From positions 1-64,000 of the forward strand of contig JARLGV010000045.1 of NCBI GenBank assembly GCA_031292555.1: a DNA stretch of 64,000 nt. Reading direction: 5' to 3'. This document shows positions 7,556-54,061 of this stretch, one piece after another; position 1 is the stretch's first letter; the number at the start of each line of letters is the position of its first letter. This DNA is from Fimbriimonas sp. Lineage in GTDB: Bacteria; Armatimonadota; Fimbriimonadia; Fimbriimonadales; Fimbriimonadaceae. The notes under the pieces are model-generated. The model was not told the DNA's origin, did not search any database, and saw only the letters and a program-made list of their open reading frames with translations. Position numbers and translations under genes: made by a program.

Positions 7556-8305
7556 TTAGGCGGTGACGACGATTGGGGGATCGTCGGGGTTTGGCATCTT
7601 CTGGAGGACCTCTCGGGCGTTCGTTTGCTTCTTGACCTTCTCGTCGACCATGATTCGGCCGTCTTTGAAGCGGATAATCCGCTTGCAGTGCAGGGCGATC
7701 TCCTCTTCGTGGGTTACGATGACTACTGTCTTGCCGTCGTGGTTGAGATCTTGGAACACGGCCATGATCTCCTCGCTTGTGTGCGAGTCGAGGTTGCCCG
7801 TCGGCTCGTCGGCAAGCAGGAGCACTGGCTCGTTTACGATGGCCCGGGCGATCGCAACGCGCTGCTGCTGTCCACCGGAAAGTTCGCTGGGCTTGTGATC
7901 CATGCGCTGGCCAAGTCCCACGAGTTCGAGGGCGGCCTTGGCCTTCTCGTGGCGATTCTTCGATCCGGCGTACATGAGCGGGAGTTCGACGTTCTTGATC
8001 GCGCTGGTACGCGGCAAGAGGTTGAAGTTCTGGAAGATGAAGCCGAGATACCGGTTGCGTACGTCGGCGAGTGCGTTGTCGTTCATACGCGCGACCGCTT
8101 CGCCGTTCAGCAGGTACTCCCCATTTGTCGGCCGGTCCAGGCATCCGATCAAGTTCATAAACGTCGACTTTCCAGAGCCCGACGGCCCCATAATCGCGAC
8201 AAACTCCCCGGGCTCAACCGTCAAGTCGATAGCGCGAAGCGCATGGACGACCTGGTCACCCATAACATAGTCTTTAGAAAGGCGGTGGACTTCGATGATG
8301 TTCAT
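7556..8305 (-). CDS. ABC transporter ATP-binding protein, MacB/LolD type
   Basis: 249 residues. Walker A GPSGSGKST at residues 40-48, Q-loop FQNFNLLPRTSA, signature LSGGQQQRVAIARA, Walker B VLLLADEP and the H-loop VIVTHE are all intact. The length and the RTSAIKNVELPL segment fit the MacB/LolD/FtsE group, which pairs with FtsX-type permeases. The matching permease is upstream in the same transcript direction, but a separate element (8311-8809) lies between the two genes. The start codon is 5 bp from that element's end, so translation signals of this gene may come from the element. Likely role: energising the efflux or lipoprotein-type mechanotransmission of the neighbouring HlyD/TolC system. 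Confidence 0.93.
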   Translation of the reverse strand: MNIIEVHRLSKDYVMGDQVVHALRAIDLTVEPGEFVAIMGPSGSGKSTFMNLIGCLDRPTNGEYLLNGEAVARMNDNALADVRNRYLGFIFQNFNLLPRTSAIKNVELPLMYAGSKNRHEKAKAALELVGLGQRMDHKPSELSGGQQQRVAIARAIVNEPVLLLADEPTGNLDSHTSEEIMAVFQDLNHDGKTVVIVTHEEEIALHCKRIIRFKDGRIMVDEKVKKQTNAREVLQKMPNPDDPPIVVTA

Positions 8306-8310
8306 TTCGT

Positions 8311-8349
8311 GGGGTCGAGGGGAGTGGGGCGGGGCGGGGGGAGAGGGTC
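8311..8349 (+). repeat. Left terminal inverted repeat of the four-helix-bundle element
   Basis: The G-rich arm lies on the plus strand, with six runs of four or more G; it pairs with 8776-8809. It satisfies the G-quadruplex pattern several times over. In the minus-strand operon transcript this arm is C-rich and lies 3' of the small gene. Confidence 0.8.
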
Positions 8350-8356
8350 GGAGGGA

Positions 8357-8737
8357 TCAGGGATTGCGTTCGATACGGTTCAGGCCGGTTTGCAGTGCGC
8401 TCAATTGGCGGCTAACTTGGTCAATTTCGTGAAGTACTGGTTCGTACTGAAGCCCATAGCCTAGCATCTGGCAAGCAAGAACCTGGGTCTCGAGCTCGTA
8501 AAGGCTCCCATAGGAATCGGACAGGAACTTCAAATACTCCTTTCGGTAACGGCGACCGTATCCTTCGGCGATATTCGATGGAACGGAAACCGCCGCTCTG
8601 CGCATCTGCTGAGTCAAGCCGAATCGTTCCTCACTTGGGAGTTTACGGGTTTCTTCGTAGATGAGTTTCAATAGATCCATCGTCCTTTGCCAGACGCGCA
8701 GCTCCCGATAGCTCTTAAGGGGCACTCCCATCCCCAT
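8357..8737 (-). CDS. Four-helix-bundle protein (23S rRNA intervening-sequence protein family)
   Basis: 126 residues with the family hallmarks: the start LKSYRELRVWQRTMDLLKLIYEETRKLP, then FGLTQQMRRAAVSVPSNIAEGYGRR near the middle, and YLKFLSDSYGSLYELETQVLACQMLGY. This family (TIGR02436-like) was first seen in intervening sequences of Leptospira and Coxiella 23S rRNA genes and is structurally related to the Avd accessory protein of diversity-generating retroelements. Its biochemical role is not known; a basic surface that binds nucleic acid has been proposed for relatives. Alternative starts exist at 8737 and 8731. It has no relation to efflux and sits inside paired G-rich inverted repeats, so it is most likely an insertion in this operon. 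Confidence 0.9.
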   Translation of the reverse strand: MGMGVPLKSYRELRVWQRTMDLLKLIYEETRKLPSEERFGLTQQMRRAAVSVPSNIAEGYGRRYRKEYLKFLSDSYGSLYELETQVLACQMLGYGLQYEPVLHEIDQVSRQLSALQTGLNRIERNP

Positions 8738-8775
8738 GTTCTACCCACAAACGCAAAGCAAGGTGGCTTGGTTTG

Positions 8776-8809
8776 GACCCTCTCCCCCCGCCCGTCTCCC
8801 CTCGACCCT
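8776..8809 (-). repeat. Right terminal inverted repeat of the four-helix-bundle element
   Basis: C-rich on the plus strand; its reverse complement matches 8311-8349 at 27 of 28 positions in the two 14-nt blocks. On the operon's sense strand it is G-rich and 5' of the small gene. Confidence 0.8.
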
Positions 8810-8811
8810 AG

Positions 8812-10020
8812 TCATTCGTACCTCAACGCTTCAATTGGCTCTAGGCGGCTGGCTCTTAGGGCGGGGTAGAGGCCGAAGAAGAGGCCTACGCCGGCGCTGA
8901 AGCCGAAGGCGATGATGACGGCTTGGGTGTTGACCATGGGGGGGACCTTGAGCAGGCCGGAGATGCCGAAAACTGCGATGGTGCCGAGGGTGATGCCAAT
9001 CAGACCGCCGACCGAACACATCACGATGCTCTCAAGCAGGAACTGTCCCAAGATGCCTTCGCGCTTGGCGCCGAGCGCCTTGCGCAGTCCGATCTCGCGG
9101 GTTCGCTCAGTGACCGACACGAGCATGATGTTCATGATGCCAATGCCGCCGACGAGCAGCGAGATCGACGCGATTCCGGCCAAAAGGATGCTTAGAAGCT
9201 GGGTCTGTTTCTGCATCGTCTCGATCCAGTCGCCCTGGTTCATCACGCGGAAAAGGGGCTCGCCCGACGCGTTCTTGCGCTTTCGGCCGAGCGAGTCCTC
9301 GACCTGCTGCTGGGTGATCGGCAGCAACTCCGAGCTTCGGCCCTGTATCGCGATCATGTCGAGGTCGCGGCGTCCGAGCAGGCGGTGCTTGGCAGTCGCG
9401 AGCGGAACGTAGATCTGATCGTCGGGGTTCCAGTTGCCGGTGCCGCCCTTATAGGCGCACACTCCAAGTACGGTGAAGCTCTCGTTCTTGATCCTAATCT
9501 GGGTGCCGATAGCGTTCTCGTCGTTGAAAAGCTCTTGGTAGGCGACCCAACCGAGTACGCAAACGTTGTTCGCCTTTGCTTCGTCGTCCATCGTGTACCA
9601 ATGGCCCGCATACATCTTGGTGGCGTTCCGGATGATCGCGATCTGGGGTTCGCCGCCGGTGACCTGGGTCATGTAGCTCGTGGACTTGTACTTGGTGACC
9701 GCCCGGGAACTGACCGTGCCGCTAACGAAGGCGATAAGAGGCACATCTTTCCTGAGCTGAGGTACGTCCTCGTCTTTCAGCGTCGGAATGTCCGAGGAAA
9801 GGCCCATCCCGCCTCGCCGCCAATTGGGCATCACCATCAGCATGTTGGTGCCCATCACCTCGATCTGCTCGAGCGACTTCTTCTTGGTGCCTTCTCCGAT
9901 GCCGATCATGGCGATGACGGACCCAACGCCGATGACGACTCCGAGCATGGTCAAGAACGACCTCAGCTTGTTAGCCGAGATCGCTCTTAGGGCAGTTTGT
10001 ACGCTGTCGACGAAGTTCAT
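8812..10020 (-). CDS. ABC transporter permease, MacB/FtsX family
   Basis: 402 residues with the MacB arrangement. There is an N-terminal transmembrane helix (residues ~18-40, LRSFLTMLGVVIGVGSVIAMIGIG), a large periplasmic domain (~45-275), then three C-terminal helices (~280-305, 330-355, 365-390). The motif VSVTERTREIGLRKALGAKR is the FtsX-family signature. With the adaptor and TolC-like genes upstream it should form a tripartite pump that exports substrates such as macrolides, peptides or lipids across both membranes. It starts 9 bp after the adaptor gene. The cognate ATPase gene is separated from it by the inserted four-helix-bundle element. Confidence 0.93.
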   Translation of the reverse strand: MNFVDSVQTALRAISANKLRSFLTMLGVVIGVGSVIAMIGIGEGTKKKSLEQIEVMGTNMLMVMPNWRRGGMGLSSDIPTLKDEDVPQLRKDVPLIAFVSGTVSSRAVTKYKSTSYMTQVTGGEPQIAIIRNATKMYAGHWYTMDDEAKANNVCVLGWVAYQELFNDENAIGTQIRIKNESFTVLGVCAYKGGTGNWNPDDQIYVPLATAKHRLLGRRDLDMIAIQGRSSELLPITQQQVEDSLGRKRKNASGEPLFRVMNQGDWIETMQKQTQLLSILLAGIASISLLVGGIGIMNIMLVSVTERTREIGLRKALGAKREGILGQFLLESIVMCSVGGLIGITLGTIAVFGISGLLKVPPMVNTQAVIIAFGFSAGVGLFFGLYPALRASRLEPIEALRYE

Positions 10021-27888: not shown

Positions 27889-27906
27889 GGAGGCATTATG
27901 GCTTGG

Positions 27907-27978
27907 TTCGGGGAGCGGTGTTCGGGGCGCGGGGTTCGGGAAGCGCCACCACCCGCAAAGAGCAACCCACGCCCCGAA
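27907..27978. repeat. G-rich inverted-repeat element D (gene-less, hairpin type)
   Basis: The left arm has four G-runs spaced by TTC/CGC (27910-27940). Its segment 27921-27936 (TTCGGGGCGCGGGGTT) is complementary to 27964-27978 with one mismatch and a one-base difference, giving a stem of about 15 bp around a 27-nt loop. It lies between the divergent ispE and tmRNA genes, where both promoters must also be. The TTCGGG spacing is shared with element A. Confidence 0.6.
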
Positions 27979-28011: not shown

Positions 28012-28365
28012 GGGGGCGAACGGGTTCGACAGGGCTGGTTCGACTTTCGGTTGCGAGCCGAGGCGCCGTTGGCCTCGTTAAAAGCGGCAAAAAAAGTAAT
28101 TGCGAATAACAACTACGCCTACGCGGCCTAATCTCCGCGTGGTCCACCACTTCCAAGCCGGTCGGGAGTGTCATGGGCCTAAGAAAATCCGGATCGTTTA
28201 GGGAGCTTCTGTTCGTAGCGACCTCGACTAGATAAATCGAGCTGGACGACCGCCCAGGTGGCCCCGACAGAGGGCGGCGTCGAGATAAAGTACAGGGGAG
28301 ACGCTCGTGGTTAATTGAAGGGCCGACAGTTTTGGAAGGGAGTTCAATTCTCCCCGCCTCCACCA
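28012..28365 (+). ncRNA. ssrA: Transfer-messenger RNA
   Basis: The 5' end GGGGGCGAACGGGTTCGACAGG is the universal tmRNA start, and the 3' end (TTCAATTCTCCCCGCCTCC then ACCA) supplies the T-arm and the acceptor strand. The 7-bp acceptor stem GGGGGCG/CGCCTCC pairs with one G-T. The reading frame for the tag starts at GCA 28087 and ends at TAA 28129-28131, encoding AKKVIANNNYAYAA. With SmpB it rescues stalled ribosomes and marks the product for proteolysis. CCA is encoded. The 3' end overlaps the left attachment repeat of an integrated island. Confidence 0.97.

Positions 28366-52552: not shown

Positions 52553-54061
<1,509 letters not shown>

Follow-up and report, generated by a model that had tools for sequence, protein, structure and literature searches.

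We propose that genes of the 23S rRNA intervening-sequence family (IVP/S23) form part of a dispersing element, made of inverted short-tandem-repeat arms and a single IVP gene, which would spread in a RAYT/REP-like manner with a helper that is not a transposase; we give this reading a probability of roughly 0.55. It starts from one locus in the window, by which we mean the whole 64,000-nucleotide stretch of Fimbriimonas sp. DNA that was analysed, and draws on 61 related genomes and on IVP loci from many phyla. Movement of the element is what we infer from these sequence comparisons.

The IVP gene of the window lies between inverted heptad arrays

The IVP gene of the window (23S_rRNA_IVP/TIGR02436, a four-helix-bundle family; 8357..8737, minus strand) encodes 126 amino acids and is the sole gene between two arms. 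On the sense strand of the gene, the 5' arm upstream of the IVP start (8776..8808, minus strand) is a degenerate G-rich heptad array, GGGTCGAGGGGAGACGGGCGGGGGGAGAGGGTC, and the 3' arm (8312..8349, minus strand) is inverted relative to it, with GGGTCGAGGGGAGTGGGGCGGGGCGGGGGGAGAGGGTC as its reverse complement. The inverted repeat reaches 83% between 8312-8341 and 8779-8808 and 86% between 8322-8349 and 8776-8803, and GGGTCGAGGGGAGACGGGCGGGGGGAGAGGGTC and GGGTCGAGGGGAGTGGGGCGGGGCGGGGGGAGAGGGTC align end to end with gaps of 4 and 1 nt, a result equalled by none of 200 shuffles. Because self-match within the arms is highest at lags 7 and 14, we regard them as degenerate heptad arrays, of the form GGGnnnn. 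These measurements, together with the PF05635 match of the 126-residue product, bear out the original prediction of inverted G-rich arms around a single gene of the IVP family.

The element occupies the gap between two genes of a host operon, a MacB-like permease gene upstream (8812..10020, minus strand; PF12704 and PF02687, MacB_PCD/FtsX) and an ABC ATPase gene downstream (7556..8305, minus strand; PF00005). Three bases separate the outer arm end at 8808 from the permease stop and six separate 8312 from the ATPase start, close to the 2 bp and 5 bp that had been predicted. The only rRNA in the window is SSU at 52553-54061, and the element, sitting between the permease and ATPase genes, is outside it. 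No reverse transcriptase gene was seen beside the IVP gene in this operon. As RNA, the element is predicted to fold with a long closing stem that holds the IVP gene in its loop (z=-4.8).

Elsewhere in the window, a G-rich period-14 array, TTCGGGGAGCGGTGTTCGGGGCGCGGGGTTCGGG, was observed at 27905-27945. It lies upstream of the tmRNA gene (28012-28365), at a distance of about 70 bp, and may be the array of another unit, without a gene.

The IVP protein is conserved and has no known catalytic domain

The window protein matches PF05635, its sole Pfam match, with E=3.6e-34 and 117.6 bits (cut-off 33.8), and TIGR02436 with 115.8 bits (cut-off 24). Its model (pLDDT 93.8) has the fold of PDB 2GSC (rmsd 0.8), of 2RLD and of the Avd protein 4DWL (TM 0.72), and the full-domain profile match and the fold together place it in the IVP/S23 family. 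Across 138 sequences, W16, Y27, P34, E37, Q44, R47, S51, N55, E58, G59, R62, S78, E81 and T84 are 91-99% conserved, and the many polar residues among them suggest a functional surface rather than a scaffold alone. A comparison of X. arboricola with X. dyei gave a dN of 0.014 and a dS of 0.233, showing that IVP is under purifying selection in Xanthomonas. The protein contains no known catalytic domain, and the Y1 (HUH) transposase domain is absent from the flanked gene, which PF05635 alone matches. IVP/S23 genes are still annotated as encoding proteins of unknown function.

Orthologous operons lack the element

Orthologous permease-ATPase operons had been named by the original prediction as the place to look for empty sites, and five orthologues of the MacB-like operon in the same genus have gaps with neither an IVP gene nor the window's arms. 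Counted from where the permease ends up to the first ATPase residue in the match, these gaps are 14 bp (G005, the shortest), 108 bp (G004), 206 bp (G019), 90 bp (G006) and 628 bp (G008); the G019 permease is 90% identical to the window permease. Since the orthologous gaps are without IVP and arms, the element has been added in this genome to a gap that is variable anyway and is too diverged among the orthologues for exact insertion ends to be read. The possibility that the arms are ordinary operon sequence is ruled out by the same gaps, which have neither arms nor gene. A second orthologous site at which the cassettes differ is the groES-groEL gap of two sister genomes described below.

IVP genes occur in 31 of the 61 related genomes, with 0-11 matches each. 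No insertion with target duplication was found, the orthologous sites of dispersed arrays being mostly occupied or too diverged. What stands of the predicted self-contained mobile unit is a gene-plus-arms unit whose arrival as such is well supported by the empty gaps, the patchy copies, the joint travel of gene and arms and the scattered cognate arms. It has no other gene inside, and its arms are short tandem-repeat arrays and not classical transposon ends.

Inverted arms are a general trait of IVP loci

A search for paired arms at the IVP loci of relatives, which had also been proposed, gave significant inverted arms (0 of 200 shuffles as good) at 42 of the 63 loci with both flanks. Such arms were likewise found at 56 of 77 testable loci in a cross-phylum sample of GTDB species genomes, for which XCC0516 of X. 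campestris (PDB 2GSC) was the seed and which includes Bacteroidota, Pseudomonadota, Nitrospirota, Planctomycetota, Chloroflexota and candidate phyla. Only 6 of 866 other ORFs in related IVP-positive genomes passed the same test, IVP genes being bracketed by arms about a hundredfold more often than other ORFs, and because so few other ORFs have such flanks, the inverted arms of the window are far beyond chance. Roughly one IVP locus in three had no detectable arms.

A period of 7 or 14 fits best for 65 of 84 arms in the relatives and for 88 of 112 arms from many phyla, and one of 8, 9 or 10 at some loci. The 5' arm has more G than C on the sense strand in 86 of the 95 loci with a bias. Arms were present at all three plasmid copies examined, including (TAGGGAG)n in Nostoc; the (TAGGGAG)n-armed IVP gene on plasmid pNe_5 of Nostoc edaphicum (L231) lies antisense between the genes for the ribonucleotide reductase beta and alpha subunits. 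Copies recur in tight operon gaps, namely permease-ATPase in the window, groES-groEL, and accB-accC in Xanthomonadaceae, where groES/groEL and accB/accC are names that we presume from reading the flanking protein sequence and not from a profile search. Two of the groES-groEL copies (L013 and L017) have significant arms, and two more (L015 and L021) have arms recognised by eye. No IVP gene within rRNA was found among 40 other IVP loci (no Rfam match).

The groES-groEL gap of three further genomes (L029, L031 and L094 in G001, G015 and G018) was observed to hold a diverged IVP-like domain with no significant arms, which carries a long repetitive C-terminal tail rich in Arg, Gly and Asp; this protein may be a domesticated IVP. 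At another locus (L041, L212:14569-15033; G002:C6:274621-274938), the IVP gene has an in-frame TAG stop and both heptamer arms are kept, as expected of a decaying element.

The arm unit follows the protein clade

The arm unit varies by locus (AGTTGGC, TTCGGATTAG, TAGCTTC, GGGAATC and others) and is identical, and inverted, on both sides of the gene. In the IVP protein tree, the AGTTGGC-type loci L010, L011, L044 and L048, from three genera, form one clade (100/99), and L013 and L039, which both have TTCGGAT arms and come from different genera and loci, are joined (95/90). When only arms were compared and pairs at known orthologous loci were left out, the unit was common to 28.6% of protein pairs with a similarity of at least 0.55, as against 3.1% expected (0 of 10000 permutations). 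A Mantel test on the relatives, also with arms only, gave rho 0.148 (27 of 5000), with a flipped-strand control near zero.

The sister genomes G013 and G014 have one groES-groEL gap in common, with flanks 96% and 80% identical. The IVP genes that occupy it belong to different subfamilies and have arms that differ as well, and gene and arms therefore change together. Comparison of sequences across these loci shows that gene and arm unit go together between loci, with a unit specific to the genome and the protein clade. Near-identical Calothrix copies at two plasmid sites were considered as independent cases and rejected, as they represent one shared module.

Cognate arrays without a gene are scattered in IVP-positive genomes

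AGTTNGC arrays were found in 10 of the 61 genomes, all of them IVP-positive and including all five with an AGTTGGC-armed IVP gene (Fisher p=8e-4). The (GGGAATC)n repeats of Xanthomonas are the arms of its IVP gene, and GGGAATC arrays were present in 5 of 5 Xanthomonadaceae genomes (16-124 exact hits) and in 0 of 3 genomes with other units. In a reciprocal search with TAGTGGN, the matches were confined to its own genome. Partial copies of the window's arm occur at six further places in its own genome (G000), one of them in an inverted pair, and no copies were found in four relatives. The scattered copies of X. arboricola occur either singly, as one arm, or as convergent pairs with a spacing of about 50-120 bp, and many have an inner end in common with the IVP-cassette arm. 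These comparisons show that the cognate unit is dispersed without the gene, in the form of lone arms and of convergent pairs of arms. At some orthologous array sites the unit differs between Xanthomonas species, from which it follows that arrays are also remodelled in place.

Period-7 arrays were also counted irrespective of their unit, in 20-kb stretches from 18 genomes (N runs in L300, L305 and L320 removed by hand). The ten IVP-positive genomes yielded 24 arrays in 1.0 Mb, of which two are IVP arms, and the eight IVP-negative genomes yielded none in 0.6 Mb, counts that are not independent events because the 18 genomes share descent.

Two loci with paired arrays were observed in addition. 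At L218:17949-18120, a convergent pair of heptamer arrays about 110 bp apart has no gene between them and resembles a miniature version, and at L301:400-1154 a 153-aa gene with no Pfam match, and no IVP, lies between inverted composite heptamer arrays of the ATTTTGG and AGCTATC types, possibly a passenger-carrying version.

Alternative explanations

If the arrays themselves were primary, produced by replication slippage or by a Y1/RAYT-type mobiliser, the IVP gene would be a passenger caught between two of them. Inverted array pairs without a gene, the one unrelated gene that also lies between inverted arrays (L301) and the remodelling of arrays in place are consistent with this, as is a correlation between the number of Y1 transposases (0-26) and the number of IVP genes in the 61 related genomes (Spearman rho 0.40, p=0.0016), which perhaps reflects general mobile-element load. 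We nevertheless consider it unlikely that the gene is a passenger: the bracketing of 42 of 63 IVP genes as against 6 of 866 other ORFs is seen in many phyla, the sampled IVP-free genomes are without arrays and several of them have Y1 transposases (G004, G005 and G019), and G031 has four IVP genes and dense cognate arrays but no Y1 match. A processing or regulatory module, in which the RNA stem of the arms is cut by RNase III in the operon transcript, complementarity is kept for that cut and spread occurs only by ordinary horizontal transfer and recombination, would account for the predicted closing stem of the window element and for the recurrence of copies inside operons, and it has a precedent in the Coxiella intervening sequence (IVS), whose 28-bp terminal stem is cut by RNase III (PMC4990558). 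It leaves unexplained why the heptamers are in tandem, why arrays of the same unit are scattered without a gene and why a copy lies antisense between the ribonucleotide reductase genes, and we judge it improbable.

The fold match to Avd (4DWL, TM 0.72) raises the further prospect of a retroelement like the diversity-generating ones, with IVP as the Avd-like partner of a reverse transcriptase in trans. But RVT_1 was found in just 10 of the 61 genomes and is absent from G002 (11 IVP matches), G010 (9) and G008, and the numbers of RVT_1 and IVP gave rho 0.11 (p=0.41) in a search that very divergent reverse transcriptases could escape. As RVT_1 is missing from the IVP-richest genomes, retrotransposition with a reverse transcriptase in trans is rejected, which leaves such a partnership a very slim chance; the IVP element does not need an RVT_1 reverse transcriptase. 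Chance would require that self-complementary G-rich intergenic or ordinary operon sequence gave rise to the arms, and low-complexity G-rich sequence does ease chance matches, but this is refuted by the orthologous gaps without arms and gene, by the shuffles and by the control ORFs, and its probability is negligible.

Proposed mechanism and relation to known systems

We therefore return to the dispersing element with a single IVP gene as the preferred explanation. An IVP cassette would sit in a narrow gap between two genes of an operon, and the IVP protein would recognise its cognate repeat in DNA or RNA, the target probably being the hairpin that the arms can form. The protein would help to spread its own cassette, and gene-less arms in trans, while cutting and joining may be carried out by host replication and repair enzymes or by an as yet undescribed IVP activity. 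Joint travel of gene and arms alone is not proof of recognition.

Taken as a whole, the element is most closely related to the rRNA intervening sequence. The 23S rRNA IVS of Leptospira and Coxiella likewise has one IVP/S23 ORF in terminal inverted repeats that can form a stem, in a total of about 0.4-0.5 kb. It differs from the window element, which lies in a protein-coding operon, outside ribosomal RNA genes, and whose arms are arrays of tandem repeats. Cognate copies of these arms are scattered elsewhere in the genome; to our knowledge, such scattered copies have not been described for IVS. Mobility of the rRNA IVS has been proposed earlier but not demonstrated (PMC4990558). Avd of diversity-generating retroelements has the same fold as IVP, but most genomes here are without RVT_1 and the sequence identity of IVP and Avd is about 12%. 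IVP also appears by name in the legend of a figure that deals with CRISPR-array-associated genes (PMC10910872).

Heptameric simple repeats have been reported without a known maker or function in Xanthomonas (GGGAATC) and Nostoc (GGGGA(C/T)T) (PMC4692102) and in Beggiatoaceae (TAACTGA) (PMC4679880). The passages on these repeats in the two papers report no associated gene, and for Beggiatoaceae it has been speculated that the mobile element could be a protein which binds the repeat (PMC4679880). In Xanthomonas, the repeats match the arms of the accB-accC IVP gene both in their unit and in their convergent pairing. We see in the IVP family a strong candidate for the partner that bacterial 7-base repeats have so far lacked. 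In the open-access literature we found no paper that couples IVP/S23 with tandem repeats, and an earlier description may exist elsewhere. The link between IVP and repeats lets both puzzles be tested together in one system, which pairs a specific small protein with a specific repeat and offers genomes in which both are present or both are absent. More tentatively, and at somewhat less than even odds, IVP/S23 proteins may be the helpers of previously unrecognised and very widespread bacterial mobile elements, each reading its own heptamer and spreading arrays in trans, which would explain the heptameric repeats of Xanthomonas, cyanobacteria and others; rRNA intervening sequences would then be a special case, copies that had landed in 23S genes.

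The closest functional analogue is the RAYT (TnpA_REP)/REP system (PMC2817692), which also has a single gene, inverted short-repeat flanks and many gene-less, genome-specific copies, and the IVP element appears to work in this way. Unlike RAYT, the IVP element is without a Y1/HUH domain, and its repeats are tandem heptamers and not GTAG-type palindromes. If IVP does direct the spread, this would be a RAYT/REP-like system with an origin of its own, and a mobile element that has no recognised transposase. In one of the related genomes (G008, L293:380-1910), a FAD-binding/lactone oxidase gene was observed between long inverted palindromic repeats of the CACTGGCTTGAAGCCAGTG type, which resemble REPs and not heptamers.
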